IMG/VR virus record: IMGVR_UViG_3300035034_000349
Location: 1-62,820 of that record
DNA: 62,820 nucleotides
Source of the DNA: a virus
Direction: 5' to 3' (one strand)
Shown: in pieces, positions 16,992 through 52,711 of the stretch
Layout of the letters: each line of letters opens with the position of its first letter
Numbering within the stretch: the first letter of the stretch is position 1
The notes under the pieces: generated by a model
What the model saw: the letters and a program-made list of their open reading frames with translations, nothing else
What the model was told of the DNA's origin: nothing
Database searches by the model: none
Made by a program: the position numbers and the translations under genes

Positions 16992-17037
16992 AACATTCAT
17001 ATTATACAAATTAATTTCAAAATAATGCATTTTTTAC

Positions 17038-17066
17038 TTGACAAGGTTTTGAAAGATGTGTATAAT
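17038..17066 (+). promoter_or_regulatory. Strong host-type promoter of ncRNA locus 1
   Basis: TTGACA (17038-17043), 17 bases, TATAAT (17061-17066): a perfect consensus. No coding frame follows for 300 bases on this strand. The ~50-base block around it is nearly identical to the minus-strand block at 52253-52304. Confidence 0.85.
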
Positions 17067-17072
17067 AGAATT

Positions 17073-17390
17073 ATATATTCCCTTATTGTAATAAGTCTTA
17101 TTCGAGTAAAATTCGTTTTTTTATAAATTAATATGTTAATTAATGGATACGAAAACACTGTAATCTTTTAACAGTCTTACTTAAATAAGAAATACAACAA
17201 ATAATACCACGTAGATATTGCGAAGCAATTAGAGTCTTAAAGATTCTTACTGTATATAGACTTAGAACATTGAATTTGTTTATTCTCTACAGACTTACAA
17301 TAATGAATACCTATGTCTATTTCATAGACCATATAATTTCAAATATGTATTTCTTATTGAGAAGACTCTAATGCTTCGCAAAGGGCTATG
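17073..17390 (+). ncRNA. Structured phage ncRNA, copy 1
   Basis: This is the only content of the 432-base gap between 16953 and 17386. The expected transcript starts near 17073. It holds a conserved block (ACTTAAATAAGA ... ACGTAGATATTG), a long-range stem of about 20 bp formed by 17218-17239 (TTGCGAAGCAATTAGAGTC) and 17362-17381, and between them a conserved core with a 6-bp hairpin GTCTAT-TTC-ATAGAC (17315-17329). Copy 2 at 51912-52261 conserves all of these in inverted orientation. The 3' end is unclear: a GGGC-TAT-GCCC hairpin (17383-17393) follows without a T-run and overlaps the stop of the spike gene on the other strand. Function unknown. Confidence 0.7.
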
Positions 17391-18273
17391 CCCCGTCTAT
17401 CTTCGTTCTATCTTTAGGATATTTAGTTTTTTTATCATTTACAAGATCATTCATATCTTCTATATTTCCTGCGCTACTCTTAATTCTATTAAACGTAGGC
17501 TCACACACAGAATCTTCAATAGATAGACCACCTGTAGGATCGTTATCTAATATAGCTTTAAATGGTACGCTTGGCCCCGGTTTATTAAAATGAACTTGCG
17601 AACCGTCTACATATACGACTCCAGCCGATTCTATAGATGTTCCACTCTTTGAAACAGTATTGAATGAGGCTTCGCATGACACATTATATACGCCTTTGGA
17701 ATAATGCACAAACTCTCCCTCATTTCTCAATACAAGATTTGCAAAAGACTGAATATTATGATTTCCTTTTGTGTAGTCTAGCTTTTCACCTTTTACACGA
17801 GTTGTCATATTACCATGTACGGTTAAGTCGTAATTCCCGCCAATTTTCTGTTTTACATCACCTTTTGTCAGAATATTGGCATTGCCTTGCACCGTTATAT
17901 TGAGATTGCCACCTACTGTCAGGACATTGTCTTCGAGTGATATATGAAAATCATCTCCAAAGACTTTAACAACCTTTGTTCCATCTTGGTGAATCTCGTA
18001 ATATGTACCAGACTTATGCATTTCCATAAGTCTTTCCGCACCCGGTGTGTCATCAACCTCTGTTACGTGTCCAGAAAGACTCTGAGTAACGCTATTGTAA
18101 GGATACGCCGTATGTGTAGGACTTGAAGGCTCTGTATAATTTAAATTATCATCGGCTGTAGAGATTACATCAAGTGTATTACTCTTAATTACATTTACAC
18201 GATTATTAGACCCTCCAAGACCAGTTGTAGGAGAATCGTGTATAATGTCAATATCTTTAGTGTACTTACTCAT
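17386..18273 (-). CDS. Baseplate central spike, gp5 C-terminal-type beta-helix
   Basis: 295 residues. The middle (~80-235) is a run of short beta repeats (HISLEDNVLTVGGNLNITV and similar), as in the triple-stranded beta-helix of T4 gp5C/VgrG-type spikes; MHKSGTYYEIHQDGTKVVK leads into it. In T4 this part is fused to gp5, whereas here it is a separate gene sharing its start with the end of the peptidase-bearing hub gene. It pierces the outer membrane at infection. The stop lies inside the small hairpin at the ncRNA 3' end. Confidence 0.75.
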   Translation of the reverse strand: MSKYTKDIDIIHDSPTTGLGGSNNRVNVIKSNTLDVISTADDNLNYTEPSSPTHTAYPYNSVTQSLSGHVTEVDDTPGAERLMEMHKSGTYYEIHQDGTKVVKVFGDDFHISLEDNVLTVGGNLNITVQGNANILTKGDVKQKIGGNYDLTVHGNMTTRVKGEKLDYTKGNHNIQSFANLVLRNEGEFVHYSKGVYNVSCEASFNTVSKSGTSIESAGVVYVDGSQVHFNKPGPSVPFKAILDNDPTGGLSIEDSVCEPTFNRIKSSAGNIEDMNDLVNDKKTKYPKDRTKIDGA

Positions 18274-19421
18274 TATTCTGGACCATCTTTCGCCCGTACG
18301 GGCATATCTGATTTTTTGAATGGCAATGGACTAATATCATATTGTTTATTTAATACAGTCTTTGTGAAAGATTGGTGTTGGTGTGCAAGTTGTGGAAACA
18401 CTCGGCCGGGGTTTATGGCATTTGGTGCAACGGGAAGGGCTGTTCCTGTACGAATCTCAAAATGAAGGTGTGTCAGACTATCCCAAACATGACTTCTACC
18501 GACTGTACCGATTTGTTGTCCTTTTGAGACTGTATCGCCTACGCCAACACTTATACCAGCTCCAGCCGCGTCTTTTGCCGCGTCTTGACTTACACCTAAA
18601 TGAGCATATATAGTGGTATATGTGCCTGTAGATAATTCGTGTGTAATTGCCACGGCATTACCGAACGATCTTCCTTTTGGTACACCGTTTGGTCCAAGCT
18701 TGTCATAATCACTTACTCTACCACCTTGTCCCCTATCTGCGCGGAATATACAAACCACTTTTCCTGCCGCCGCCGCATATACGGGAAGCCCTGCTGGTCC
18801 TTTTAAGACTCCATTAATATGTGACGCACCTTTATCAGTCTGTTTAAAGAATCCTGCTGGACATATATCAACTCCTAAATGTGTTCCGTTTCCGCGCGAC
18901 TCTCCAAAAGCACTTGAAACAAAGCCTGAAAATGGAACACACCATTCACTTTTATTGATATTAAGCATACGCGGATCAACGGGGTCTGTGTTAACATTAA
19001 CAGAGTCTGTTTCTTGTGGCGAGATATTATCGCCTTCTTTTTTAAAGATACTGAATACATTAGGAAACCAGTCTGTAGAACCGTTTTCGGTTGCGCGTGT
19101 AGACTCAGTCTGTGTTACACCACCAGCGACACCGATCATAATAGGAGATTGTCCAGATTCGCCATCTAAGAAAAAACCAAAGACTACCGAACCGGGCAAT
19201 AAGCCTGTAGGAGACTTTCCAACTCCAGCGACCCCAGCGTTTGTAATAGGAGTTATAGGATAAGCCCACGGCAAGGCATCTGTAGGCAACTCTTCAATAC
19301 TAGGATTGTGCCAACCATGTATTCTTACGCGACACCGACCAACTCCCATAGGATCGCCATTTGATTCGACTTCACCAAACCACCATATAAAACCATTCTT
19401 ACCCTGAAAGAGTCTATCCAT
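18273..19421 (-). CDS. 5: Baseplate hub gp5 with M23 peptidase domain
   Basis: The N-terminal ~110 residues form an OB-fold of the gp5/VgrG type (WWFGEVESNGDPMGVGRCRVR, LLPGSVVFGFFLDG). The C-terminal half is a zinc endopeptidase of family M23 (GTHLGVDI, AITHELSTGTYTTIYAHLG, THLHFEI). Where T4 gp5 carries a lysozyme, this phage has a peptide-cleaving domain. The start at 19421 (MDRLFQGKNGF) is preferred over the ATG at 19457, which lies inside the upstream gene. The spike gene follows immediately. Confidence 0.85.
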   Translation of the reverse strand: MDRLFQGKNGFIWWFGEVESNGDPMGVGRCRVRIHGWHNPSIEELPTDALPWAYPITPITNAGVAGVGKSPTGLLPGSVVFGFFLDGESGQSPIMIGVAGGVTQTESTRATENGSTDWFPNVFSIFKKEGDNISPQETDSVNVNTDPVDPRMLNINKSEWCVPFSGFVSSAFGESRGNGTHLGVDICPAGFFKQTDKGASHINGVLKGPAGLPVYAAAAGKVVCIFRADRGQGGRVSDYDKLGPNGVPKGRSFGNAVAITHELSTGTYTTIYAHLGVSQDAAKDAAGAGISVGVGDTVSKGQQIGTVGRSHVWDSLTHLHFEIRTGTALPVAPNAINPGRVFPQLAHQHQSFTKTVLNKQYDISPLPFKKSDMPVRAKDGPE

Positions 19422-20646
19422 TATTCGCCAACATTTTCTCATTAAATATAGACTCAACTCTATTCTTCAAGTCTTCTATATTCTTTTCGGATATATCATT
19501 ACCGACAATGACACTCTTTAAGAATAATTCACTATCTCTATATTCTTGTGTGATATTCTGATTAACCTTGATTTGTTCTCTAAGAATAAGACTCTTTTTA
19601 ATATTAACAAGATAATCAATCGAGTCTGTTTTCTTATTAATAACGCCTAAATCAACGATCATTCTATCGGCAACTTTATAAAAAGCCCTACTCATTGCCT
19701 GAACAGATTCGTTATATGAGTACACTTTAATACTTTTCACAGACTCCGATAGACTAGGCAATAATATATCAGTGTCTAATAAGTGTTTATCAATAATTAT
19801 ATTATACTCTTTTGTTACATAGTCTATCAAAGGTTGGTAGTCTGTATATGTCGATACATATTTGTAAAAGTCTAATTTAATATCTTGGACCACTTTATTT
19901 TTTTTATTGATACCGAGTGGATCGCTAGGTGATACAAGCGTGTCTATATTTAAAACAGTCTGTAGTGATTGTTTCTCATACTCTAAAAAAGAGCTTTTGG
20001 CATTCTCGCGCTGTTCAATACTCTTAAAGGCTTGTAAGGCATGATCTGCATACTGCCCAGCATTTACGATATTTCTAAGACCATTAGGTAGAATATTAAA
20101 GAGTGGTAAAGATAATATTGATCTTAGACCACTATTTTTTATAGACTCTAATAATGGCATATTCTCTTCCAGTACATAAAGCATATTTACAACATCCGAG
20201 AATGATATGTTAATTCCTGCAATCTGAACTTCAAGGTCTTTAAAGAATACCTGTTCTATCTGCGAGAATAAAAGACCATTCTGCACACTGTCTAAGATTG
20301 CGAGATTTGTGTTTAAGAGTGAGAAACCGTCTACAAACATTTGTTGTACGTTAGCAGGAATAAAATTATATACACCGATCATAGATAAATTGCCACTAAT
20401 TGTCGTAAACAGACTTTGTGCCGTTGCAACCTTGCCTAGAATGTTTTCAAGCTTGAATCTATTCTTCTCTCTACGATAGTTCGGATCGCCTTCAACTTGA
20501 ATATAATCAAGAATCTTACTCTCATTGACAAATTCAAGCCTTCGCGCTCGACTCATAAGAATATCAAGCCTACCTAAGTATGCTCCAGACTCATAAAGGC
20601 TGGAGTTTATTTGCGGGGCGTTATATATTTTATTAAATATTGACAT
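19414..20646 (-). CDS. Baseplate-associated protein of unknown type (410 aa)
   Basis: A largely helical protein with alternating hydrophobic and charged stretches and no recognised domain. It lies between the tail-tube-like gene and the gp5 gene and is coupled to both, so it is most likely a baseplate or tail component. The start MSIFNKIYNAPQ at 20646 follows the previous stop by 3 bases. Confidence 0.6.
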   Translation of the reverse strand: MSIFNKIYNAPQINSSLYESGAYLGRLDILMSRARRLEFVNESKILDYIQVEGDPNYRREKNRFKLENILGKVATAQSLFTTISGNLSMIGVYNFIPANVQQMFVDGFSLLNTNLAILDSVQNGLLFSQIEQVFFKDLEVQIAGINISFSDVVNMLYVLEENMPLLESIKNSGLRSILSLPLFNILPNGLRNIVNAGQYADHALQAFKSIEQRENAKSSFLEYEKQSLQTVLNIDTLVSPSDPLGINKKNKVVQDIKLDFYKYVSTYTDYQPLIDYVTKEYNIIIDKHLLDTDILLPSLSESVKSIKVYSYNESVQAMSRAFYKVADRMIVDLGVINKKTDSIDYLVNIKKSLILREQIKVNQNITQEYRDSELFLKSVIVGNDISEKNIEDLKNRVESIFNEKMLANNG

Positions 20647-20649
20647 ATA

Positions 20650-21204
20650 TTAAGCAAAGGGATTGAAGCCTTTGTCCTTATCAAAGTATAATTCTTCGAC
20701 TGTGTAGAATTGCATATTTACATTAAATTGTCCTATACCCTCATTTGCATAACCTTTATCGAGTGGTGATACGTTTGAGGGGAATACGTCTTTGACAATA
20801 CACTCATAAGTCTTGTTTCTTTTCTTATCATACTGTATAATGTGAACATTTTTTACATAGTCTTTAAAGAATGCAAAGCGTAGAGAACTCTTATTGAATA
20901 TCTTTTCTTGCCATTTTACAAAATATTCTCTTTCCTTTTCATATTCAGACTCGTAGAATGTTAAGTTAAGCTCCGTAAAGCTTTTACCCATTGGCATATT
21001 ATGAATATTACCAATTGCCCATTTGCGAAATTGTGAAAAGATAATGTTCGTACCGGGTGTATTCACCTGTGAACAGTTTAGCATAACGTCTTGTGAAGCG
21101 TCTTCAACAGTCGTTCCACCGAGAATCCTTACTTCATATAGATAAGGCTTTAATAGAAAGTTTCTATTAAGATGGGCGTAGATTTCTGTGATGTCTTTTG
21201 TCAT
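20650..21204 (-). CDS. Tail-tube-like protein, probable tube initiator (gp54 type)
   Basis: 184 residues with the tail-tube pattern: NCSQVNTPG (about 43-51), GKSFTELNLTFYESEYEKE, then F-KW---I. Such proteins form the first ring of the tube on the hub. T4 gp54 and gp19 share this fold; the position next to hub genes favours gp54, the short length favours gp19. A late promoter lies at 21210-21217. Confidence 0.6.
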   Translation of the reverse strand: MTKDITEIYAHLNRNFLLKPYLYEVRILGGTTVEDASQDVMLNCSQVNTPGTNIIFSQFRKWAIGNIHNMPMGKSFTELNLTFYESEYEKEREYFVKWQEKIFNKSSLRFAFFKDYVKNVHIIQYDKKRNKTYECIVKDVFPSNVSPLDKGYANEGIGQFNVNMQFYTVEELYFDKDKGFNPFA

Positions 21205-21209
21205 AACTA

Positions 21210-21217
21210 TATTTATA
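21210..21217 (-). promoter_or_regulatory. T4-type late promoter TATAAATA
   Basis: TATAAATA on the minus strand 6 bases before the ATG of the tail-tube-like gene. The short leader makes it uncertain. Confidence 0.5.
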
Positions 21218-21222
21218 TGACT

Positions 21223-21837
21223 TTATCTGCTTTTACCAGAGTCAGACCATACTTTACTATTGACAGCCCCTTTGAAGTCTGCTGTAGGTAGATATAAAGC
21301 GGCTTCCCACTCTTCAGATGGTATTTTAACAATCTTAGACTTTACGTGACTATGTAAGTAGTGTTTGAACATTGGTTTAAATATACTCAACTTCGCCGCG
21401 CCTTTAAGCATAGAATATGATATAGCAAATTTGGTCTTTTTGTCAAACCTTTTATTGTTTGTGTATGCAAGAAGCTTGTCAAAGAATAAAGCCCTCATTT
21501 TAGGCGATAGATAATGTACATTAAGACCATAAAAACCACCTTCTGCTGGTCCAACCATAATTATAAGCGGAAAAGCATCCCAATACGGCAATGTTGCTTT
21601 ATGCTTGGCATCATACACAAAAGAATACATAAAGCCTATTCCGGGCGTGCGCGACAAACCAAACCCACGCTCAGTCTGATTTTTAATAAGCGTATCACGA
21701 GTGTTTTGTCCACCCATTGTCTTGACTTTGTCTTTATACCATGTAACAGACTGGCTAGAGAATCTATCTAGCTTACGACTTTGCGCTCCTCTTTCGAGTT
21801 TTTGCAAAAGGGTTAAAGGTTTTTCTTTCTTAGCCAT
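21223..21837 (-). CDS. Probable DNA end protector (gp2-like)
   Basis: 204 residues. The central motif, PYWDAFPLIIMVG followed by GFYGLNVHYLSPKMRALFF, is shared with T4-like marine phage proteins annotated as DNA end protector (gp2), which caps packaged DNA ends. It lies directly after gp4, as the head-completion pair does in T4. T4 gp2 itself is longer (274 aa), so the name is tentative. Confidence 0.55.
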   Translation of the reverse strand: MAKKEKPLTLLQKLERGAQSRKLDRFSSQSVTWYKDKVKTMGGQNTRDTLIKNQTERGFGLSRTPGIGFMYSFVYDAKHKATLPYWDAFPLIIMVGPAEGGFYGLNVHYLSPKMRALFFDKLLAYTNNKRFDKKTKFAISYSMLKGAAKLSIFKPMFKHYLHSHVKSKIVKIPSEEWEAALYLPTADFKGAVNSKVWSDSGKSR

Positions 21838-21841
21838 ACTC

Positions 21842-22309
21842 TTATTTATTCTTTCTACCAGTCTTTACAATGTTTTTTATATCGTGTTCGGTTATGATAG
21901 AGAATTTATATCCTTTTCTATTACAGTACGCAAGCGCGGCATCCCATTTTGCAGTATTGACCACAAAAGTTTTACACTCATTAAGGTATCGTAGCTTAGT
22001 CTTGCGTGTTTCTTTTTTTGGTTCGATTGGCGGCATAGTCTGAGACTCTGGTTTAACTTCTATAATCGTAGTTTCATTCTCTGTGTTTGTTATAGTAAAG
22101 TCTGGGAAGTATCTGTGTTTCTTTCCGTCTACAGGCGATATGTATGGTATAACAACCTCTTCGCTTTGCCACTGTATAATATTTGGATTATTATCACACC
22201 AAACCATGAACGATCTTTCCAATAACGATCTCCATACAATTTTTGTAGGATCACCTTTATACTTTGCGCGGTTTTTAAGTCTATATGTACCTTTGTAAGA
22301 TTTTCTCAT
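21842..22309 (-). CDS. 4: Head completion protein gp4
   Basis: 155 residues with the gp4 signature: VWRSLLERSFMVWCD, IIQWQSEEVVIPYISPVDGK, HRYFPDFTI and TTIIEVKPESQ, which resembles a TnsA/PD-(D/E)XK nuclease core. gp4 joins heads to tails after packaging. It is the first of the minus-strand late genes and is transcribed away from gp48. Confidence 0.8.
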   Translation of the reverse strand: MRKSYKGTYRLKNRAKYKGDPTKIVWRSLLERSFMVWCDNNPNIIQWQSEEVVIPYISPVDGKKHRYFPDFTITNTENETTIIEVKPESQTMPPIEPKKETRKTKLRYLNECKTFVVNTAKWDAALAYCNRKGYKFSIITEHDIKNIVKTGRKNK

Positions 22310-22316
22310 TATGTTT

Positions 22317-22324
22317 TATAAATA
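22317..22324 (+). promoter_or_regulatory. T4-type late promoter TATAAATA
   Basis: TATAAATA on the plus strand 25 bases upstream of the gp48 start, with AAAGGAA as ribosome site. Confidence 0.7.
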
Positions 22325-22348
22325 TGTTATGAATGTAAAGGAATATTT

Positions 22349-23149
22349 ATGACTAGCGATTTTAACAAGAATACCAGCTTTCGGTATCCAAACGATCTTT
22401 TAGATAAGACTAGGAAACAACCGCTTCCTTGGACACTCATTGAAATTGTAGAGTTTCGTCAAAGAAACTTTGTATGGGATAGAGGCAAGGCAAAAGATGT
22501 AAACACCGAGAAAAAGACTCATGCAAGAATTGCTTTACCTTTGCCAGAGAATCCGATAAGCGATTCAAAAACTATGAACTGGGAAATGGCTAATATGCAA
22601 GCCTTGAAAATTCTTGACAACGCTTCGCAAGGCGATTTAAAAGCTGTAGCAAGCGGAATGAATGCTATGATCTTAGGCGGTATTAATAGAATCGTTGCCA
22701 GTAAGACCGCAAACCCTAAGAAACAGGCTTTATTTGAAGGTCACGAGCCTAGAACCTTTACATTAGATTACACATTCTTTCCACAATCTTTGCAGGAAGC
22801 TGAAACGCTTGGCAAACTTATTCGCACACTATCTGAATATGCTTTGCCTGAAGCTGAAGAAGGCGAAGGTATTTTAAACGAGGGTCTACAGGGCATGACT
22901 CAGGCTGGTGAAAGTCTTGAAAGATTGGTATTAGATAAGAGTGCATTCTTTAAATTTCCAGCCGAATTTATGATATCCTTTAATAATGTACGCGGCTTTC
23001 CAAAGTACATGCCCGCTGTATGTACGAATATATCAACAAATCTAGGCTCTCAGATACAGTTATTTGAGTCTGGACATAGTGTTCAAGTGAATCTATCTAT
23101 GTCTTTCCTTGAAACCGAACTTTTAAGAAGGGGTAATCCGGGTGTATAA
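22349..23149 (+). CDS. 48: Baseplate tail-tube cap gp48-like
   Basis: 266 residues with FRYPNDLL near the start, NPKKQALFEGHEPRTFTLDYTF in the middle and a beta-rich end (YMPAVCTNISTNLG), the pattern of gp48, which caps the hub and nucleates the tail tube. T4 gp48 is longer (364 aa). It starts the plus-strand baseplate run gp48-gp53-gp27-gp26/51-tape measure, in T4-like order, after a late promoter. Confidence 0.65.
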   Translation: MTSDFNKNTSFRYPNDLLDKTRKQPLPWTLIEIVEFRQRNFVWDRGKAKDVNTEKKTHARIALPLPENPISDSKTMNWEMANMQALKILDNASQGDLKAVASGMNAMILGGINRIVASKTANPKKQALFEGHEPRTFTLDYTFFPQSLQEAETLGKLIRTLSEYALPEAEEGEGILNEGLQGMTQAGESLERLVLDKSAFFKFPAEFMISFNNVRGFPKYMPAVCTNISTNLGSQIQLFESGHSVQVNLSMSFLETELLRRGNPGV

Positions 23150-23639
23150 TAATTATCCTAAGACTATACATAATAAAAGAAAGATATCTAATCTTACGGT
23201 TAGGCTCTCTATTATAAATGATATTAAGACTAATTTCAATATCTTTCAGAAATTTATATTACGTGCAGGACAATCTCCAGAAGACATTGCCTTAGAGTTT
23301 TACAATGATGAAGAATTGTTTTGGCTTGTGTTGATGGTGAATAATATCAGCGATCCTTATCATGGTTGGTATATGACAGATTCAGACTTAGATACTTATG
23401 TAAAAGATAAGTATGGTCCAGAAAATGTATATAATATCCACCATTACGAGACTATAACAGGCTCTGTATATCCCGTAGGTACTTATGTCGATTTTGGCGC
23501 GCCATTTTCAAAGTCTGTTACGAATTATGTGTATGAAGAATCTTTAAATGAAAAGAGACAAAGAATCAAACTATTGAAGCCTTCATATTTACCGCAACTA
23601 TTATCAGAAATAGAACAACAATTACAAAATGTCCGATAA
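23142..23639 (+). CDS. 53: Baseplate wedge gp53
   Basis: 165 residues. A LysM-like stretch GQSPEDIALEFYNDEELFWLVLMVNNISDPYHGW (residues ~43-76, key residues SPE, W and N) is the signature of gp53, a wedge subunit that binds at the hub edge. It overlaps gp48 by 8 bases and the next gene by 11. Confidence 0.8.
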   Translation: MYNNYPKTIHNKRKISNLTVRLSIINDIKTNFNIFQKFILRAGQSPEDIALEFYNDEELFWLVLMVNNISDPYHGWYMTDSDLDTYVKDKYGPENVYNIHHYETITGSVYPVGTYVDFGAPFSKSVTNYVYEESLNEKRQRIKLLKPSYLPQLLSEIEQQLQNVR

Positions 23640-25823: not shown

Positions 25824-25843
25824 CGGTTGGAGGAGAATCGTTA
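25811..25843 (+). promoter_or_regulatory. Programmed -1 frameshift signal
   Basis: The heptamer T TTT TTA (25811-25817) is in exact gp26 phase (AGT TTT TTA). After 3 bases comes an 8-bp stem: TAACGGTT (25821-25828) with AATCGTTA (25836-25843), one G-T wobble, loop GGAGGAG. A -1 shift continues in an open frame for 54 residues. Confidence 0.8.
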
Positions 25844-25981: not shown

Positions 25982-25989
25982 ATACCACT

Positions 25990-32926: not shown

Positions 32927-34337
32927 TTGATACCTTTCCTGTAGACTCTGAGCCTAGTTTATACTTATTCTCTATATATGCGACAAACTCTTTATTGTTG
33001 AGCAAGTCTTCAAGCCAGATATCTGTGTCTTTTTTACGAACCTTTGAGTCTGGACTAGCGGGTAAGGCGTACCAACCGTTTGTAGGTGAAATAATATGTT
33101 TAGATTCTAAGGCAAGATCAAGCAAGCCTGAATACTTATCAATACCAGAGTCGAATAAGACTTTAAGACCAATGCGAGCCTTTTCTTTTACGAAGCGAGA
33201 CTTCTCCACATTTAAGTTAAAGGTAAAGCCTTTTAATTCTTTGCCCTCTTTTTCCATAGCCTTTGTGATAATAATGGCAGTATTCGCCGCGAACATAAGC
33301 CCAGTATTATGGTGATTAATACCATTAACATCTCTATATGAGTTGTTATTTTCAACGGTCAAATCATATACATCTTCTTTATCAATTTTTTTAATATTTT
33401 TAATTTTCAAATCAGCGAGAATATCTTCATTATTATAATCTGTCACGCCAACCCACTTATTATCAGTTGTTAATAGTTTATGATTAGCCGAACATTTAAA
33501 CTTTACGCCATTTTCCATCTCAACTTCGTATAGATCGGGCTTAGGCTCTAATAGTGTATGTTTGTTCCATGTATGCGTCACTAACTGGTACGTACCATCG
33601 TGAGTCATAACTTTATCGCCTACGACAATATTTTCTATACTACATGCGCCGCCTTCAGTTAATACCTTATGTCCAGCGGTAAGGCACCCGCCTCCAATAA
33701 TAGTCTTTGGAAACAATCCAATTTCTTGATAAGTGTGGGCAATGCCGACACACGGAATATCTTTAATGGTGAGTTTCGCTGTAATGATTCTGAATAGAGA
33801 CTTCAAAGCCTTTGCGCGAGTCATATCGCCTACAGTTTTACCGTCTAAAGCGTCTTGTGCTTCTTTATCAGACCCCATATTACCAAAAGAGTCTACAAAG
33901 ATTATGACTTTATCACCTTTTACCAATTCTTCAAGTTTCTGAGCAATGTCAATTTTCATCTTCTCTACAGACTCTACTGGAATGTGTACGACTCGTGAAA
34001 CATCAACACCCTGCGCTTTCATATACTCTTCAGTGATACCAAATTCAGTGTCATAAAAAAGACAAACACCATCTTTATGTTTATTGAGATATGCCGATAC
34101 GACTGCCAAGCCTAGTAGAGACTTAAAGTGTCGTGATGGACCAGCAATTACGGTAAAGCCCGGTGATAATCCACGATTAGGAGAACCTGAAAGAATGATA
34201 TTCATTGCTGGGTATGCTGTTTTAACAAAAGAATCGTCTGTAAGATTGAAAAACTCTGACTTAGAGACTAAAGAAGAGCCTTTGCCTTTGAGTAATTTTT
34301 TCAATAGGGGATTAGATACGGAAGTTGTTCCCGACAT
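32910..34337 (-). CDS. uvsX: UvsX RecA-like recombinase, intein-containing
   Basis: A 475-residue precursor, 348 after splicing. The ATPase core has Walker A GPSRHFKS (66-73), the glutamate stretch LFYDTEFG, and Walker B VIIFVDS. A 127-residue mini-intein (218-344) sits in the DNA-binding loop region between IIGGG and TGLMFAAN. UvsX does strand exchange in recombination-dependent replication and repair. It heads the operon uvsX-gp41 with its own promoter at 34370-34398. Confidence 0.93.
   Translation of the reverse strand: MSGTTSVSNPLLKKLLKGKGSSLVSKSEFFNLTDDSFVKTAYPAMNIILSGSPNRGLSPGFTVIAGPSRHFKSLLGLAVVSAYLNKHKDGVCLFYDTEFGITEEYMKAQGVDVSRVVHIPVESVEKMKIDIAQKLEELVKGDKVIIFVDSFGNMGSDKEAQDALDGKTVGDMTRAKALKSLFRIITAKLTIKDIPCVGIAHTYQEIGLFPKTIIGGGCLTAGHKVLTEGGACSIENIVVGDKVMTHDGTYQLVTHTWNKHTLLEPKPDLYEVEMENGVKFKCSANHKLLTTDNKWVGVTDYNNEDILADLKIKNIKKIDKEDVYDLTVENNNSYRDVNGINHHNTGLMFAANTAIIITKAMEKEGKELKGFTFNLNVEKSRFVKEKARIGLKVLFDSGIDKYSGLLDLALESKHIISPTNGWYALPASPDSKVRKKDTDIWLEDLLNNKEFVAYIENKYKLGSESTGKVSSDEEE
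33306..33686 (-). mobile_element. UvsX mini-intein (127 aa)
   Basis: Begins CLTAGHKVLTEGG, block B CSANHKLLT, ends VYDLTVENNNSYRDV...INHHN before Thr. No endonuclease domain. It disrupts the second DNA-binding loop of the recombinase. Confidence 0.92.
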
Positions 34338-41046: not shown

Positions 41047-41067
41047 GTTTTTTCCTTAGAGGGCTAT

Positions 41068-41159
41068 AAAATTCGTGTTTTTTTATCGTTTAATATCAGA
41101 TAGTTACAGAGACAAAAATCAATTAAAAAACACTTATGGTACTACCCTACCATAAGTGT
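41068..41159 (-). repeat. Terminator/leader repeat, copy C
   Basis: The best-preserved copy. On the minus strand a perfect 11-bp hairpin (41131-41141 with 41148-41158, loop 6) is followed at once by TTTTTTAATTG, a classic Rho-independent terminator for the 117-aa gene. The conserved GTCTCTGTAACTATCTGAT block and the TAAACGATAAAAAA tail then run up to the RNA ligase leader. Confidence 0.85.
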
Positions 41160-41172
41160 GATTTTAAACGCT

Positions 41173-41526
41173 TTATTTCACTTTGTAGGGTTTATCCCAT
41201 TTTCCGATACACAAGTTTTGGTAGTAATTTGGAATATTTCCGTAGTCTCCATCAACACTCTCAACACGCTCCTGACAAACTTCGTTCATGGCTTCAAGAA
41301 CTCGACTAAAAACTTTAACAGCCTCTGGCTCAGACTCGTAGTGGTCTTTGTACCAGAAAGTGTTAACATCGGTATATGAATGGTCTTTGAAGATATCTGG
41401 ACCAGACATAATTGAAACGCCAACACTACTGTGATTTTCGCGGCGAACGCTAAATTTAAACTCTGGTAAAGACTTCTTCAGGTTCTCGCGCATGGCTTTA
41501 ACTTGTTCTGTACTGATATAAGGCAT
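41173..41526 (-). CDS. LPD29-domain-like protein (117 aa)
   Basis: MPYISTEQVKAMRENLKKSLPEFKFSVRRENHSSVGVSIMSGP is the pattern of the LPD29 domain (large polyvalent protein-associated 29; key: YIS, L---PEFKFSVR, V-I-SGP), found alone in many phages and within large polyvalent proteins. The role is unknown. It forms a closed early unit: promoter with the conserved leader (41571-41598) and terminator repeat copy C. Confidence 0.7.
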   Translation of the reverse strand: MPYISTEQVKAMRENLKKSLPEFKFSVRRENHSSVGVSIMSGPDIFKDHSYTDVNTFWYKDHYESEPEAVKVFSRVLEAMNEVCQERVESVDGDYGNIPNYYQNLCIGKWDKPYKVK

Positions 41527-41570
41527 AATATAATCTCTTTCTTCTGGTTAAAAATCTTTCTTACAAGATT

Positions 41571-41598
41571 ATAATAACACATTATAAAGAGATGTCAA
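41571..41598 (-). promoter_or_regulatory. Host-type promoter with conserved leader
   Basis: TTGACA (41593-41598), 16 bases, TATTAT (41571-41576), then AATCTTGTAAGAAAGATTT. Compared with the copies at 7976 and 48386 it has AATCT/AGATT in place of AGTCT/AGACT, a paired change. Confidence 0.8.
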
Positions 41599-44069: not shown

Positions 44070-44081
44070 AGAGTTTAATCC

Positions 44082-44759: not shown

Positions 44760-44996
44760 TTATATATCTTTCTTATGGTTAATGGTGTCGGTATTATAGT
44801 ATAAGTCTTCGATAATGTCAAGATATTGTCGAATTTTGTCAATATCCTGTTTACCGCCTTTGAATCTATGGCGACAAATATATTTTACGACATTGGCTTC
44901 GCATGGCGTAAGGTTGTTTTCTTCGCAGAATACAATAGGCTGAATTTTAAGACGTTTATAATGATCGCCGCCTATTTGGTCTTTAAGAGACTTCAT
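44760..44996 (-). CDS. DUF3310 protein (78 aa)
   Basis: GGDHYKRLKIQPIVFCEENN and ANVVKYICRHRFKGGKQDIDK are the conserved blocks of DUF3310, a short phage family sometimes called nucleotide-kinase-like without proof. The gene ends right before gp45 and contains the gp45 promoter. Confidence 0.8.
   Translation of the reverse strand: MKSLKDQIGGDHYKRLKIQPIVFCEENNLTPCEANVVKYICRHRFKGGKQDIDKIRQYLDIIEDLYYNTDTINHKKDI
44793..44821 (-). promoter_or_regulatory. Host-type promoter of the gp45 operon
   Basis: Minus-strand TTGACA (44816-44821), 17 bases, TATAAT (44793-44798): a perfect consensus inside the DUF3310 coding frame, 34 bases before gp45. Confidence 0.8.
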
Positions 44997-45005
44997 GTAT
45001 GCTCC

Positions 45006-46007: not shown

Positions 46008-46038
46008 AATATAAATCTTTCTCTATAAGTTATAAGAT

Positions 46039-46067
46039 AGTGTAACACAGTTATGATATAAGGTCAA
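46039..46067 (-). promoter_or_regulatory. Host-type promoter of the CobS-like gene
   Basis: Minus-strand TTGACC (46062-46067), 17 bases, TACACT (46039-46044). It overlaps the end of the CobT-like gene. Confidence 0.65.
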
Positions 46068-47877
46068 CAAAAATATTCATAAAAATCAAAGATTTTCGAC
46101 TATTTTTAATTCCTTTGAGTTTAAAGGAGTTTACATCCACTACAAAATACTTATCAAATGCGTAAGTGTCTGTGTAGGCTGTAAAATTATGTTTCTTAAA
46201 GGCTAATTCACAGTCTGTGTATTTTGTGTAATGCTCTTCTGAAGTTGTATCTGGTCCAAGCCAGCCTAGAGTTCGTTCGAAACTTTTATAGTAACCTTCT
46301 GTTACAAAAATTCCTGTCAGGCTGTGTAGATTGTTTACATCTTTAATATACTTAAAGATTGTATGTGAAGTCCAGTTATTATTACTAGTATCTAATTTAT
46401 AATTCATTAGTCTTTTCTTACTGATAAGAAAAGAGCCTTTGCCCACATTTATATTATCAGTCGCGCCGCCATCTGTAATAACAATCATAGATAGTTTTTC
46501 TATCTGGTGTGCAGATTTAAAAGACTGAATTTTTTTGTTAATGAGTAACGAACAATGACAAGTAGGAGTCATTCCCATAGAGAAAACTCGTTTATGAGCC
46601 TTCATCGACATATAAAAACCGTGTAAATAGTCTGTGTAATCTTTGTTTTTCATACTGGAGTTGAAAATCTCAAAAATCATACCCTCGTTTTTAATACGCG
46701 GGGTTTTTTCAGGTATGACTTTATGTAGATTGTAGGCTTTGGATGTAAAACCATAAACAACATACGGTATTTGTATTTTACGACAAAATTCAATAAGAGC
46801 TACAGCCTGTTTGATTGTAGAGTCTAGTTGGCTTGCCATACTTGAAGACCAGTCTACCATAATAACCAAGCCATGATTTTTACCTTCTGGCACAGACTCG
46901 TTTTTTAGAAAAATGTTATCATGTGTGCGATACCGCGCCAGCTTTTTACTGTCAATTTGACCACTATTAGAGACTTTAATCTTCTGATAGTCTGAAGCAG
47001 ATTTTCTCATATTAAATCTATTGACCATCGTAGCAATGGTGGGTCTTAATTCTGATAAAAAATTAGTCAAGTGTGTAGATCGGGCGCCGCGCTGATTAAT
47101 ACTATATATTTTCTGTATCGCGTCATCAATATCATCAACACTCTCATTATAGTCTTCACACTCTTCAGATAAGTCTACAACTTCGCCTTCACCAGTCTCA
47201 GACACTTGTTTCTCTGAAAAGGCTTTATCAAAGGCTTCCTGTGTAAAGCCTCCACACTCTCCACCGCCTGAAGAGTCTCCCTCGCCAGCTTCCTTGTCTT
47301 CTGGTGTATTGTCATTATTCTTATCATGCTCGTATATGGCAATTGCCGCTTTGCGGGCATCTTCAAAAGACTCTTCATTGTCTACCATAGTGACTAGAAG
47401 CTGTTCTTCACTTGTGAAAGGGATTTGAATGGCATGTCCGATTTTGAAGTGTAGGTTAATTTTGTCGATAAGTGGAAGTACACTGAGATCAGGCTTCGCA
47501 CTTAGTCCGAAAAAGTCTTTGTCTGCAAGGTCTTTATAGAAATGAAACATAAGAGCCTTCGTGCCCGGAAATTTGCGTTTCAGGAGTTTTTCAATTCTGG
47601 CATCTTCGGTGATGTTAATATATGAGGGTGGTACGTCATTTTTACCAGCATCCATATAGGCTTGCGCTGGAGTCCATAAAGCGTGCGAAATCTCATGCGC
47701 GATGAAGGCTGTGTATGCTTGACTATTCATATCTTTAAGCATTGGCAATTCTACAACACGAGTCAAAAGATTGAATGATGCGGTTTGCGCGTTTGGCGAA
47801 TGAATAACAGAAAGGTTCTCAGACGCAAGTAGTCTGGCTAACACATTCTTGGCATTGATGTTTATCTTATCGTTCAT
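46051..47877 (-). CDS. CobT-like VWA protein with HExxH motif
   Basis: 608 residues. The N-terminal part carries AHEISHALWTP (H61-E62-xx-H65), a zinc-metallopeptidase-like helix; an acidic linker follows (around 195-250); the C-terminal half is a von Willebrand A domain with MIDAS motif MVDWSSSM and ITDGGATDN. The pairing with a MoxR/CobS ATPase is the standard chaperone couple. The target is unknown. Promoter at 47902-47930. Confidence 0.8.
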   Translation of the reverse strand: MNDKININAKNVLARLLASENLSVIHSPNAQTASFNLLTRVVELPMLKDMNSQAYTAFIAHEISHALWTPAQAYMDAGKNDVPPSYINITEDARIEKLLKRKFPGTKALMFHFYKDLADKDFFGLSAKPDLSVLPLIDKINLHFKIGHAIQIPFTSEEQLLVTMVDNEESFEDARKAAIAIYEHDKNNDNTPEDKEAGEGDSSGGGECGGFTQEAFDKAFSEKQVSETGEGEVVDLSEECEDYNESVDDIDDAIQKIYSINQRGARSTHLTNFLSELRPTIATMVNRFNMRKSASDYQKIKVSNSGQIDSKKLARYRTHDNIFLKNESVPEGKNHGLVIMVDWSSSMASQLDSTIKQAVALIEFCRKIQIPYVVYGFTSKAYNLHKVIPEKTPRIKNEGMIFEIFNSSMKNKDYTDYLHGFYMSMKAHKRVFSMGMTPTCHCSLLINKKIQSFKSAHQIEKLSMIVITDGGATDNINVGKGSFLISKKRLMNYKLDTSNNNWTSHTIFKYIKDVNNLHSLTGIFVTEGYYKSFERTLGWLGPDTTSEEHYTKYTDCELAFKKHNFTAYTDTYAFDKYFVVDVNSFKLKGIKNSRKSLIFMNIFVDLIS

Positions 47878-47901
47878 AATATAATCTCTCTTTCTATTAA
47901 G

Positions 47902-47930
47902 ACTCTATCAAACATTACACAGTCTGTCAA
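47902..47930 (-). promoter_or_regulatory. Host-type promoter of the CobT-like gene
   Basis: Minus-strand TTGACA (47925-47930), 17 bases, TAGAGT (47902-47907). Confidence 0.6.
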
Positions 47931-47933
47931 GCG

Positions 47934-48341
47934 TTAAAGCATCTTCATAATGTCTTTAATATCATTATTATCAAAATCAGCATCAACACCGCTATAAGTG
48001 TCTTCGAAGGCTTCAAGCGCGGCAAACAGTTTTAAAGGATTTGCTTTAACTTTTGCGGGAAGCTTGGCGTTCTCTGTATCGTGGTATGCTTTTTTCAGCT
48101 TTTCAAGATTTTTACGAGTGGCAATAATCCACTTATTACGCCCGACTTTGTATTCATGATTCTTTGTGAAATATTGAAAGTTGGCATATTTATCAGAGTT
48201 GGCATCGAACACTTCACAGATTTGTGTGCGTGTAACAATTGCGCCCTCACCGAAGGTATTAATCAGCGCATTGATAAATGTGGCATATTTGATCTTTGTT
48301 TTATTCTGTTTAATGGTCTTCCATTTATATGTATCAGTCAT
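47934..48341 (-). CDS. Hypothetical early protein, possible winged helix (135 aa)
   Basis: Residues ~15-70 (ATFINALINTFGEGAIVTRTQI onward) have helix-turn-helix spacing and end with the basic stretch NHEYKVGRNKWII; the C-terminus is acidic. A DNA-binding role is possible but is only an impression. It begins the minus-strand early region with a strong promoter and the conserved leader. Confidence 0.6.
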   Translation of the reverse strand: MTDTYKWKTIKQNKTKIKYATFINALINTFGEGAIVTRTQICEVFDANSDKYANFQYFTKNHEYKVGRNKWIIATRKNLEKLKKAYHDTENAKLPAKVKANPLKLFAALEAFEDTYSGVDADFDNNDIKDIMKML

Positions 48342-48385
48342 AATATAGTCTCTTTCTTTTTGTGTTAAATCTTTCTTACAAGACT

Positions 48386-48413
48386 ATAATAGCACCTTGG
48401 ACCAGCATGTCAA
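48386..48413 (-). promoter_or_regulatory. Host-type promoter with conserved leader
   Basis: TTGACA (48408-48413), 16 bases, TATTAT (48386-48391), then AGTCTTGTAAGAAAGATTT and GAAAGAGACTATATTATG. Near twin of the promoter at 7976. Confidence 0.8.
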
Positions 48414-48437
48414 ATGTTATTTTTAATAAATAATAGT

Positions 48438-48893
48438 ATGAATGAGAAAGAGTCTAAATCGTTATCAGATAACGTTTCGCAGGAAGAACTGATACAGATG
48501 ATTATCAGAAACCAGAATAAATCTGGGGATGGTATATCAATATCTCCTATGACAGCGGTAATAGGTATGAGTGGCGCACTTGTAGTGCTTATTCAGCTTA
48601 TGGTTGGTCTTGCAGTCTGGTCAATGCAAGACAGGCTTGACAGATACGATCAGTATGAATCAAGAATCACGACCATTGAAAATAATGTCGTAAAACTCGA
48701 TAGACTGGCAGAAGACGTTTCATTATTGATTCATGAGTTTAAACTCTTTTCAAAAACCGAAAGATTTGATACTACAGACTTTCAGACTAATATCCAACCG
48801 TTTCGTATCAGATTAGAGACTCTTGAAACTTATAGTAGACGTTTTGAAGATAGAGTATTGAAAAGGCTTGATAAACTTGAAGAAATAAAATAA
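48438..48893 (+). CDS. Membrane-anchored coiled-coil protein (151 aa)
   Basis: The start at 48438 (MNEKESKSLSDNVSQ) is chosen; an AATAAATA late-like motif lies at 48424-48431, so the upstream frame is unlikely. One membrane helix (about 38-62, MTAVIGMSGALVVLIQLMVG) is followed by a long heptad-type coiled coil. The topology resembles an i-spanin or a membrane anchor. It is divergent from the 135-aa gene. Confidence 0.55.
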   Translation: MNEKESKSLSDNVSQEELIQMIIRNQNKSGDGISISPMTAVIGMSGALVVLIQLMVGLAVWSMQDRLDRYDQYESRITTIENNVVKLDRLAEDVSLLIHEFKLFSKTERFDTTDFQTNIQPFRIRLETLETYSRRFEDRVLKRLDKLEEIK

Positions 48894-48896
48894 CAT

Positions 48897-48925
48897 TTGA
48901 CATAATACATTTTATATAGTATTAT
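48897..48925 (+). promoter_or_regulatory. Host-type promoter of the plus-strand cassette
   Basis: TTGACA (48897-48902), 17 bases, TATTAT (48920-48925), 30 bases before the KxDG gene. Confidence 0.8.
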
Positions 48926-48954
48926 AATAATTCATCCAATAAAATCAGAAAATT

Positions 48955-49842
48955 ATGACAAACAATCACATCACTCATTTGGAGGATTTGATTTTTAATG
49001 GTCAATCCGACTCAGTGCGGAATGCTATATCAATTCTTCAGAATATCTCAAATCAAAAATTTATCACCAAATACGATGGCGCGCCTGCGCTAGTCTTTGG
49101 TTTATGTCCTATTGAGAATAAGTTTTTCATAGGCACAAAGTCTGTATTCAATAAGAGGATACCGAAGATTAATTACACACTCAAAGACATTGAGAAGAAT
49201 CATAAAAATAATCAAACTCTGGTCCAGATTCTAAAATATTGTTACGAGCATATGAAAGATGGAGTCTATACCAGTGTTTATCAGGGTGATTTAATATTCA
49301 TCGAAGAGTGGGTTAAAGACTTTAAAGTAAAGCCTAATGTGATTGAATATGAATTACCTGTAGATATAAGTAATGGTTATAAGATTGGTATAGTTATTCA
49401 TACAGAGTATAGTAACAATACGGCAAAGTATAGTATAGACTCTTTACCAAGCTGTACGAATACTTTCTTTTACTCTCCTAATACCTATACAAATCTATCA
49501 ATAGATAAAGAAACACTTACGAAGATTGGTCAAATATTTAGGACAATACCATCAGAGTATTTGGATAATATACCAAAAGACATTATTAAGTATGTAAACA
49601 GCTTCGTGCGAAGTGGTGATGAAGACTATACTCAGCATTCTTGTCTGGAGACTCGTAAACTCTTAACCATACACTCTTTAATCGTAAAAGAAAAGCTAAA
49701 TATTCTCACGCAACTTAAAGTCTTAAATAACGATATCATATCAGCCGTAGACCATGAGGGCTATGTTTTTCATAATACACAGCCTCTGAAGATTGTTGAT
49801 AGATACTCATTTTCATATAAAAATTTCACACAAAACGACTAA
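48955..49842 (+). CDS. Nucleotidyltransferase/ligase-like protein with KxDG motif (295 aa)
   Basis: HLEDLIFNGQSDSVRNAI, then KYDGAPALVFG (K39-Y-D-G42) and GTKSVFNKR form the adenylation-type motif seen in DNA/RNA ligases and in the DUF6267-like phage family. HEGYVFHN near the C-terminus would fit motif IV/V. A ligase or adenylating function is therefore plausible but unproven. It is the first gene of a four-gene plus-strand run with its own early promoter. Confidence 0.6.
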   Translation: MTNNHITHLEDLIFNGQSDSVRNAISILQNISNQKFITKYDGAPALVFGLCPIENKFFIGTKSVFNKRIPKINYTLKDIEKNHKNNQTLVQILKYCYEHMKDGVYTSVYQGDLIFIEEWVKDFKVKPNVIEYELPVDISNGYKIGIVIHTEYSNNTAKYSIDSLPSCTNTFFYSPNTYTNLSIDKETLTKIGQIFRTIPSEYLDNIPKDIIKYVNSFVRSGDEDYTQHSCLETRKLLTIHSLIVKEKLNILTQLKVLNNDIISAVDHEGYVFHNTQPLKIVDRYSFSYKNFTQND

Positions 49843-49859
49843 TATAACAGGAACATAAT

Positions 49860-50786
49860 ATGTATGCAACAAATACATATCGTGCCAATGTTAATGAAAT
49901 CTATACAGGATTCTTCATTAACAATGAGCAGTGGTACGATTTAAACGCCAAAGAATTAATAGACGAATATAAAATAACGCTTGAAGCCGAAATATTCAAT
50001 GACGAAAAAGAAAAAGCCTATGTCATGGCTCAGAAATTCAATGAGTGGAATACAGACTACAAAGACTTAGAAGGAGTCTGGTGGGCTGGGCGTGATCCAA
50101 CGCTTGTGTCAAAGCTTGTGGGATTGTCTAGTACCATTCAAGAAAATCCTACAGATATTCTTTTGAAGTATAAGCTTGGTGGTTATCTTGGCGTATCGTG
50201 TAAGTCTTCGGTAAAGCATGTTAAAGTTCCTTGGAAAAACACAGGAATCATAAGTCTGTGTGAGTTCTTAGATATTCCAGAGTGTGTAGACTTTATACAG
50301 TCTGAGACACAATATATCATAGATAAGTACAACCTACCACAAACTGCCAAGGATAGAAAGTTATATGTCAGGGCAAACCCAGATATTAATATCATAACAA
50401 AGACTCACGGGGCTTTTATTATGTCTGGAGTTAGGGATAGGATTTATGAAGGCTTTACCAGACTATCACAGACTCAGATTAGAGACTATGTTTTTAAATA
50501 TCTATTAAACTCTGATTCAAAAGTTCCGCCGTGGGTTAAAGTGCAGGGAATGGGTACATATGGTAATTACAACGCAACGGTACACGATCCTTATATCAAT
50601 AAGACAATAAGCCAATTCAAGACACAATATATAGATTTTGATAAAATAAGCGATAAAAGTATAGGACTATACACAAAGCTTGACAAAGACTGTATGAGTG
50701 TCTATAATAAACACATTGCCTTGGGAATCAAATATGAAAGTGAGGCAATGTGTGCAAGCCTGAAAACTCGTGTTCAAGATTGGTAG
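49860..50786 (+). CDS. Possible PD-(D/E)XK nuclease-like protein (308 aa)
   Basis: The first half has LEAEIF, then GVWWAGRDPTLVSK, then NPTDILLKYKLGGYLGVSCKSS, where D-(x)n-S/C-x-K spacing resembles the PD-(D/E)XK nuclease core. The second half has MSGVRDRIYEGFTRLS and no known motif. It lies between a ligase-like and a nucleotidyltransferase gene. The nuclease reading is a weak structural guess. Confidence 0.45.
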   Translation: MYATNTYRANVNEIYTGFFINNEQWYDLNAKELIDEYKITLEAEIFNDEKEKAYVMAQKFNEWNTDYKDLEGVWWAGRDPTLVSKLVGLSSTIQENPTDILLKYKLGGYLGVSCKSSVKHVKVPWKNTGIISLCEFLDIPECVDFIQSETQYIIDKYNLPQTAKDRKLYVRANPDINIITKTHGAFIMSGVRDRIYEGFTRLSQTQIRDYVFKYLLNSDSKVPPWVKVQGMGTYGNYNATVHDPYINKTISQFKTQYIDFDKISDKSIGLYTKLDKDCMSVYNKHIALGIKYESEAMCASLKTRVQDW

Positions 50787-50789
50787 AGA

Positions 50790-51359
50790 ATGAATATTAT
50801 TAGCGTATATCCCGGCCGGTTTAATTTTCCGCATAGAGGACACATAGAGTCTTTTATGGGAATGTATCACAGCATGCCCGGAAAATCTATGTTGGCTATG
50901 ACAGATAGTAATGAATATATGACATTTGATGAAAGACGCTTTGTATTAATGTCTCTAGGCGTACCGCAAGATAGAATTATTAAAGTCTCCAGTCCGTATA
51001 ATATTAAAGAGTATGAAACATATATATCAAATAAAAGCGATACGTTATGTTTCTTTTTTCTCGGTGAAAAGGATAGAGACAGATTCTCGCATAAAATTAA
51101 AAAGGATGTTACATATTTACAACACGCTTCGACTATGGATGACGTGATGGTTATACCCAAGGCTTGTGATAAACATTCGTACCTAGTCTATAAAAAAACA
51201 GTCACGCATAAAGGCTATAAATCTTCTACAGAATGGATTAAAGCCTATAAAGACTCTGATGATAGGTACAACTTTCTATGCAATGTTTATGGAAATATAC
51301 CAAACTTAAATAAGATATACGAAATATATGAAGAAAGATTCTACTATGACTGGCATTAG
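50790..51359 (+). CDS. Adenylyl/cytidylyltransferase (NMNAT-like)
   Basis: 189 residues. GRFNFPHRGH (9-18) is the nucleotidyltransferase alpha/beta phosphodiesterase motif (G-x-F-x-P-x-H-x-G-H) and is shared by NMNAT, CoaD and cytidylyltransferases. The usual second motif (ISSTxxR) is not obvious. In phages such enzymes can make NAD+ or activate sugars. It overlaps the following HAD gene. Confidence 0.75.
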   Translation: MNIISVYPGRFNFPHRGHIESFMGMYHSMPGKSMLAMTDSNEYMTFDERRFVLMSLGVPQDRIIKVSSPYNIKEYETYISNKSDTLCFFFLGEKDRDRFSHKIKKDVTYLQHASTMDDVMVIPKACDKHSYLVYKKTVTHKGYKSSTEWIKAYKDSDDRYNFLCNVYGNIPNLNKIYEIYEERFYYDWH

Positions 51360-51888
51360 ACTATACTTAGACATGGACGGAGTCTTTACCGACTTTGCCA
51401 AAAGCGCAGAAAAGGCTTATGAACATTTTCATATGGTTCGTGGCTTGTACGGAGATAGTGTATCATGTTTGAAATTAAAGAGACTTAGGCAGGATATGGT
51501 AGATGATATCATTAAGACTCCTAATTTCTGGAAAAATCTATCATGGGAAGAGAATGGTCCAGAATTGTGGGATTTTATCAGTAGCAATACTCATATATGG
51601 TCTTTAGCTGTATTGACTGCGCCGCTCGGTGGTGATATGCCTAGATGTAAAAACGAAAAACTGGAATGGTGTTATAATAATTTTGATGGTCTTATCAATG
51701 AAAGCAATTTCATATGCGCCGATGACAAATGGAATTATGTTAATCATTATGTAGGAGATAAGCAGATTCTCATTGATGATAGAGAGACTAATATTAATAA
51801 ATGGCAGTATGAGGGTGGAATCGGAATATTACATAATGGAAATCATGTAGAGACTATTCAAATACTTAAAGAATATATCTTTAATTAA
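51346..51888 (+). CDS. HAD phosphatase, 5'-nucleotidase type
   Basis: 180 residues starting MTGIRLYLDMDGVFTDF (nucleophile D9-x-D11), then LAVLTAP (motif II) and QILIDDRETNI (motif IV), the layout of 5'(3')-deoxyribonucleotidases. The ATG at 51346 overlaps the previous stop; the ATG 18 bases earlier is less likely. The gene ends at the bidirectional terminator at 51916-51951. Confidence 0.75.
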   Translation: MTGIRLYLDMDGVFTDFAKSAEKAYEHFHMVRGLYGDSVSCLKLKRLRQDMVDDIIKTPNFWKNLSWEENGPELWDFISSNTHIWSLAVLTAPLGGDMPRCKNEKLEWCYNNFDGLINESNFICADDKWNYVNHYVGDKQILIDDRETNINKWQYEGGIGILHNGNHVETIQILKEYIFN

Positions 51889-51911
51889 CAGACTCTTATA
51901 TATTAAATAAT

Positions 51912-52261
51912 ATAAAACCAGTAGAAGAATAATATCTTTTACTGGTTTTTTAATAAAAGTGTTCCGTAGGTCTTGCGAAGCAAGTAGAGTCTTATAAATA
52001 TATGAGGAATATTGGTCTATGAAATAGACATAGGTATTCATTATTGTAAGTCTGTAGAGAATAGAACAAATTCAATGTTCAGAAACTTAATTTGTAAAGA
52101 CTAAACATATTAAGAGTTATAAGACTCTAATTGCTTCGCAATATCTACGTAGTATCATTTGTTGTAACTCTTATTTAAGTAATAATATGAAAGGATTAAA
52201 GATAAGTTAAAGGATGTGATATATAAAGGGTTAAAGTCTTATTGGATTAAGAATAACATAT
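51912..52261 (-). ncRNA. Structured phage ncRNA, copy 2
   Basis: This fills the 415-base gap between 51888 and 52304. The expected transcript runs from about 52261 to about 51912 and ends at the terminator hairpin. It shares with copy 1 the ACTTAAATAAGA...ACGTAGATATTG block, a 22-bp long-range stem (52120-52141 with 51973-51994, 21 of 22 pairs) and the core with hairpin GTCTAT-TTC-ATAGAC (52015-52029), while the flanks between these differ. An ATG in the core opens a 70-codon frame (MNTYVYFID...), but without ribosome site; in copy 1 the same ATG gives only 22 codons. Confidence 0.75.
51916..51951. terminator. Bidirectional terminator
   Basis: A 13-bp stem (51916-51928 with 51935-51947, loop 6). 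Plus-strand transcripts of the HAD gene meet a T-run (51945-51951), and minus-strand ncRNA copy 2 meets TTTTATA. Confidence 0.85.
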
Positions 52262-52267
52262 AATTCT

Positions 52268-52296
52268 ATTATACACATTTTCTAAAAGCTTGTCAA
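52268..52296 (-). promoter_or_regulatory. Strong host-type promoter of ncRNA copy 2
   Basis: Minus-strand TTGACA (52291-52296), 17 bases, TATAAT (52268-52273): perfect consensus. The -35 lies 8 bases before the divergent gp25 start codon. Confidence 0.85.
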
Positions 52297-52303
52297 GTAA
52301 AAA

Positions 52304-52711
52304 ATGACATATAATCGAACTATTTTCACAAAAGGTACTGAACAATATACGGATATTGATTTATCCTTTAAAATCAATCCTCTTACAAAAGATATCCGCA
52401 CCTTATCAGACGGTGACAGTATCAAACAGGCTTTAAAAGTCTTGTTACTTACTAATTATTCTGAAAGACCGTTTAGACCAACCGTTGCTGGGAATGTAAA
52501 TAGGCTGTTATTTGAGCAATACGATCAGCTTACAGAATTAAGCCTTCGCAATGATATTATAGAGACTATTGAGAATCACGAGCCTAGAGTCTTATTAAAT
52601 GATGTAAAGGTTGTGTATAATGATTTGAGTGTAGACATAACCGTTAAATACTCTTTACAGAATGATAACAGTCTTCAAACAATAAATATGATGATTCAAC
52701 GAATTAGGTAG
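52304..52711 (+). CDS. 25: Baseplate wedge gp25
   Basis: 135 residues with the gp25/GPW lysozyme-like pattern: DIDLSFKINPLTKDI, LLLTNYSERPFRP and the acidic IIETIENHEPRV. gp25 nucleates the tail sheath. Its ATG directly abuts the conserved promoter block of ncRNA copy 2 and has no good ribosome site, so its expression may be affected by that locus. It starts the plus-strand late run gp25-gp6-gp7-gp8. Confidence 0.88.
   Translation: MTYNRTIFTKGTEQYTDIDLSFKINPLTKDIRTLSDGDSIKQALKVLLLTNYSERPFRPTVAGNVNRLLFEQYDQLTELSLRNDIIETIENHEPRVLLNDVKVVYNDLSVDITVKYSLQNDNSLQTINMMIQRIR

Follow-up and report, generated by a model that had tools for sequence, protein, structure and literature searches.

A genuine, undescribed element is carried in triplicate by one orphan T4-like phage. 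As far as its sequence lets us judge, it comprises at least three dispersed noncoding copies, of ~200-350 bases each, within a single T4-like phage species, and among its possible functions we tentatively rank first a T4-type origin at each copy, where replication would be primed early by an R-loop transcript. The window analysed here, 62,820 bp, takes in an entire viral record and is probably a fragment of the genome; its proteins are T4-like and include gp43 DNA polymerase, gp41 helicase, UvsX, gp32 and a gp59-type helicase loader as well as the clamp, clamp loader, gp25, gp6, gp5 and RNA ligase. The replication and recombination genes of the phage include gp32, the gp59-type loader, gp41, gp43, gp44, gp45, gp46/47, UvsX and UvsW. 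Its nearest cultured relatives by DNA polymerase are cyanophages, at ~40% identity, and its gp6 shares no more than 38% identity with any IMG/VR sequence retrieved outside its own species.

Copies, anatomy and genomic setting

The preliminary description held that two gaps contain the same element in opposite orientation, and comparison of the window with itself by BLASTN confirms this: copy A (17028-17381, +) aligns with copy B (52306-51973, -) over 372 columns at 72.6% identity (E = 6e-54), and the pair is the window's longest repeat. The positions reported there for promoters, stem arms, core and GTCTAT-TTC-ATAGAC hairpin agree with our recheck. Both of the copies it counted are present, but the count has to be raised to at least three, since a further copy, C, was found in sister contigs. 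An exact 41-nt core pattern matched four IMG/VR contigs, two of which are loci A and B from other samples (99.98% and 99.93% identical); the other two, which overlap each other by 19.9 kb, carry copy C at a new site. Because one C contig shares its sample with a B contig, and because the C contigs share the R2 and R3 repeats and the AGNCT excess described below, we infer that copy C comes from the same phage species as A and B. The features are listed here, in window positions for A and B.

17020..17072, +: copy A promoter block (TTGACA at 17038, TATAAT ending at 17066; A/T-rich upstream; hexamers match the consensus 12/12)
17073..17208, +: copy A 5' leader (A/T-rich, poorly conserved in the alignment; overlaps low-stability DNA)
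17209..17237, +: copy A 5' stem arm ACGTAGATATTGCGAAGCAATTAGAGTCT, the same in A, B and C
17265..17330, +: copy A 66-nt core with the GTCTAT-TTC-ATAGAC hairpin, 66/66 in all copies
17315-17329, +: GTCTATTTCATAGAC in copy A
17362..17381, +: copy A 3' stem arm, ending 5 bp short of the gp5 C-terminal ORF
52257..52306, -: copy B promoter block (TTGACA at 52296, TATAAT ending at 52268; abuts the gp25 start codon at 52304; hexamers 12/12)
52151..52256, -: copy B 5' leader (from the alignment; first part 83% identical to C)
52122..52150, -: copy B 5' stem arm ACGTAGATATTGCGAAGCAATTAGAGTCT
52014..52080, -: copy B core with the GTCTAT-TTC-ATAGAC hairpin
52029-52015, -: GTCTATTTCATAGAC in copy B
about 51973..51997, -: copy B 3' stem arm; CTACG beyond it, at ~51970-51966, lengthens the stem
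51905..51950, -: terminator-like hairpin 3' of copy B (-15.7 kcal/mol, z -4.95, then a T-rich stretch), probably bidirectional
IMGVR 3300035034_000409 (L003), 1187-1611: copy C, also present in part in 3300012147_000095

In the alignment the blocks follow one another as promoter, A/T-rich leader, 5' arm, variable loop, core, variable stretch and 3' arm. TTGACA-N17-TATAAT is present in all three copies; the promoter block, earlier called identical, is so in its hexamers and in the bases after the -10, whereas its spacer differs (identity to A of 47/55 in B and 52/55 in C). The variable leader extends over ~100-130 nt, and TACAACAAAT precedes the 29-nt 5' arm. As for the core, the hairpin ascribed to it is present, but the stretch that is identical across A, B and C extends to 66 nt and is mostly unpaired. 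The copies are mosaic: leader and 3' arm group B with C, promoter and var2 group A with C, and the core is common to all. Terminator-like hairpins follow B (z -5.0) and C (z -5.9) and are absent after A (z 0.0); the terminator tail of C, TTTTTGTCTCTGTAACT, matches the R2 repeat found 3' of other phage genes.

The copies fill the largest intergenic gaps of their contigs (432 bp at A by the ORF list, where the automatic gene picker kept a spurious ORF). Gene positions bear out that a convergent gene lies downstream of each RNA and that one promoter abuts gp25: copy B begins at a distance of 8 bp from gp25 and is directed away from that gene. Copy C diverges from gp55, which encodes the late sigma factor, and converges on a 156-aa gene that has UvsW as its neighbour, placing UvsW two genes away from the copy. 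With transcription read from the promoter sequence alone, the element is very probably expressed early, and all three copies are predicted to be transcribed against genes on both sides. At the A locus gp5 appears to be split into two ORFs (17386-18273 and 18273-19457, -), the N-terminal part having a peptidase-like domain and the separate C-terminal part matches to Gp5_C and to trimerisation domains.

Since all three copies oppose neighbouring genes, they could be cis-antisense regulators, that is, early transcripts that damp the opposed genes (the gp5 region, the gp25 leader) late in infection, in transcription or in translation. Within copy B, at 51993 (+), the gp25 strand carries TATAAATA, which resembles a late promoter and lies ~310 bp upstream of the gp25 start; a late gp25 leader beginning there could be antisense to RNA B. 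However, TATAAATA is about as frequent in the window as chance predicts, the genes opposed are not the same ones (gp5, a nucleotidase-like gene and the 156-aa unknown) and show no complementarity to the conserved core, and the terminator-like hairpins of B and C precede the convergent ORF. We regard cis-antisense regulation as very unlikely.

Folding, coding potential and relatives

The stems had been taken as a sign of RNA-level selection, a claim that did not hold in a hand alignment of the three copies, where compensatory changes were found at 0 of 30 stem positions. The 5' arm of the shared stem is nearly invariant and every change is one-sided, several breaking pairs and one restoring a pair; the outer CGTAG/CTACG helix is missing from copy A. 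Folds of the whole element reach z scores of -5 to -9, and the antisense and sense strands behave alike (antisense/sense z of -6.1/-5.2 for A, -5.8/-7.7 for B and -6.8/-5.3 for C), so the energy signal is only that of the inverted repeat. The 5' arm holds a palindrome of its own, ATTGCGAAGCAAT, and the region inside the stem gives a z of merely -0.7 to -1.7, little better than shuffled sequence. Strand-asymmetric folding together with a structured interior was not found in the three copies, and, given that these are mosaic, recombination among them may add to their likeness. A structured RNA is possible and unproven.

These results weigh on the main rival to the proposed replication origins, which we consider possible and nearly as likely: the three copies may be paralogous genes, each encoding an early ncRNA that acts in trans. 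Its ~25-bp closing stem would present the mostly single-stranded core to a host or phage protein or to a host RNA, and three copies with perfect promoters would make it abundant early. The free-standing promoter without a conserved ORF, the terminator-like hairpins after B and C (the latter with its R2-like tail), the invariant core between diverged loops and the z scores of the whole element are all consistent with such genes. They are harder to reconcile with the lack of compensatory changes, with an antisense strand that folds equally well around a weakly folding interior, and with copy A, which lacks a terminator and whose RNA would enter gp5 in antisense; nor was there an Rfam relative or a phage target clearly above shuffled controls. 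Should the RNA act in trans, it would be an undescribed triplicated early phage ncRNA, with the invariant core as a ready probe for its partner.

Antisense targets for the element within the phage were none of them clearly above shuffles. The strongest candidate, within the uvsX ORF, was rejected as about equal to the best of 15 shuffles (core/uvsX duplex of -25.3 kcal/mol vs -25.0 for the best shuffle). The core weakly resembles the antisense strand of the uvsX ORF at 33888-33995 (nhmmer E = 0.0015), a similarity that is probably due to chance, helped by the AGACT excess. A small protein gene was likewise rejected, as there is no conserved ORF and no Shine-Dalgarno or other ribosome-binding site; a common start, MNTYVYFID, runs to 22 (A), 70 (B) and 38 (C) aa with differing C termini. 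A tRNA identity was excluded, and a retron ncRNA, a 6S mimic and a CRISPR-repeat mimic were set aside because no feature matched.

The element proved new to Rfam: no Rfam 15 family was matched at the gathering threshold, and at E values up to 5 the matches were no better than chance. The covariance-model check that had been proposed against T4-like phages yielded no homologue. A model of the three copies, applied to 888 kb including ~80 relatives, gave good scores for the copies and their reverse strands only, the next match (E = 0.015) lying within a gene of the window, and found no match in 25 whole records including T4. Neither did a profile HMM on distant T4-like contigs, fetched as gp6 relatives. 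Matches to cultured phages by blastn, in Pseudomonas phage NV1 and Rhizobium phages, were confined to promoter-like sequence; IMG/VR, scanned with exact patterns and with proteins, returned the same species only, plus unrelated or very distant matches; and one scan of bacterial genomes returned a single 19-mer in Butyrivibrio, the surroundings of which are unlike the element. The gap upstream of gp25 exceeds 120 bp in just one of the 57 other T4-like contigs measurable there, which indicates that the gp25 site of the element is lineage-specific, and by eye no similar element was seen in L058, a relative with a gap at this position.

Dispersed repeats, recombination and word bias

Two further families of dispersed repeats occur in the window.

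R2: 3789-3884, 14360-14461, 41066-41178 (-); hairpin and T-run followed by TTTTTGTCTCTGTAACTATCTGATA, just 3' of stop codons; probably a standard terminator
R3: 7920-7984, 41517-41583, 48330-48398 (-); TTGACA...TATTATAGTCTTGTAAGAAAGATTTAACAC..GAGACTATATTATG, running into start codons; apparently a common early promoter and leader

A related R2 copy ends the predicted transcript of C. The presence of these families, the mosaic make-up of the copies and the heavy recombination of T4-like phages would all fit a dispersed repeat, whether hotspot or selfish repeat, that is kept alike mainly by recombination between copies, with promoter and stem incidental. Yet the flanks of the copies are unrelated and revealed neither common element ends nor target duplications, and conserved blocks alternate with diverged ones so as to coincide with promoter, arms and core and not with random tracts. 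We consider a repeat of this kind improbable.

The window as a whole also has a pronounced word bias. AGACT/AGTCT occurs at 3.9x the dinucleotide expectation (565 sites, 9 per kb) and AGGCT/AGCCT at 2.8x, in every codon frame; the excess depends on spacing, AG-N1-CT standing at 3.5x and AG-N2-CT at 0.3x. An AGNCT excess is also found in two further contigs, L022 and L023, while the other T4-like contigs compared are all at or below ~1.2x. GCWGC, CCWGG and CGWCG are nearly absent from the window (0 to 0.07 of expected), and 26 of the 64 six-base palindromes are missing altogether, which suggests restriction avoidance. DNA-methyltransferase-like proteins are encoded on a sister contig.

Proposed transcript-primed replication and comparison with known systems

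If each copy is a replication origin, host RNA polymerase would start at the strong early promoter, the RNA would stay paired with the A/T-rich DNA, forming an R-loop, and its end would prime leading-strand synthesis. The core and the palindromic GCGAAGC arms may then mark the place at which the hybrid is retained, cleaved or recognised, and the phage-encoded UvsW would clear hybrids late. The T4-type replication and recombination genes of the phage fit such origins. By DNA stability in 120-bp stretches, the copies coincide with or adjoin the least stable sites (window ranks 1, 2 and 5, with other intergenic stretches ranking nearby), and A/T-richness is to be expected of any intergenic element. 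The lack of strand asymmetry in folding fits an element that works at the DNA level. An oriE-like iteron array was not found in any copy. Third-position skew shows no clear shift at copy A and an ambiguous one at copy B, and the copies sit inside runs of same-strand genes, with no shift in transcription strand; such shifts accompany oriE, oriF and oriG of T4 but not oriA and oriC, and so do not define T4 origins.

A difficulty for replication origins is that those of T4 share no sequence motif and that R-loops there need no specific sequence (PMC3016281), which leaves the invariant core unexplained. Whether R-loops are used at T4 origins besides oriF and oriG is an open question in the same review (PMC3016281). 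Were the copies origins, the rules of transcript-primed initiation could be read from the conservation of one repeated sequence-defined element.

The positional match to the T4 origins was spotted after the fact and is imperfect. According to the T4 record, oriE lies in the 3' part of gene 5, in (-) direction, and makes a primer RNA that complements the transcript of gene 5; similarly, copy A immediately follows the 3' end of the gp5 C-terminal ORF (Gp5_C), with an early-type promoter and a predicted RNA antisense to gp5. Unlike oriE, the copies have neither iterons nor a repEA/repEB-like ORF, and their conserved sequence recurs at other sites. In T4, oriF, or ori(uvsY), is located between uvsY and gene 25, less than 100 bp from gene 25, and its RNA leaves gene 25. 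Copy B too adjoins gene 25, with its RNA running away and A/T-rich DNA downstream of the promoter, but it is on the 5' side of gp25 where oriF is on the 3' side, and it has a sigma-70 consensus and an untranslated RNA in place of a MotA middle promoter and the uvsY mRNA. The T4 annotation shows no origin near gene 55, leaving copy C without a counterpart; oriF is ~1 kb from uvsW in T4, and copy C is two genes from UvsW.

T4 has several origins, as is proposed here. That several origins of a T4-like phage should be versions of a single module defined by its sequence (promoter, palindromic arms, core and untranslated primer RNA) is unlike T4, whose origins lack a common motif, and is the more doubtful part of the proposal. 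Phage-borne Rfam RNAs (wcaG, PhotoRC-II, GOLLD-type) are likewise untranslated RNAs of large phages, and no Rfam family matches the element. By description, not by sequence, the copies resemble the lactococcal phage c2-type origins and RNA II of plasmid ColE1, in which a promoter is followed by an untranslated structured transcript at the origin, with one such origin per genome there and several copies here.
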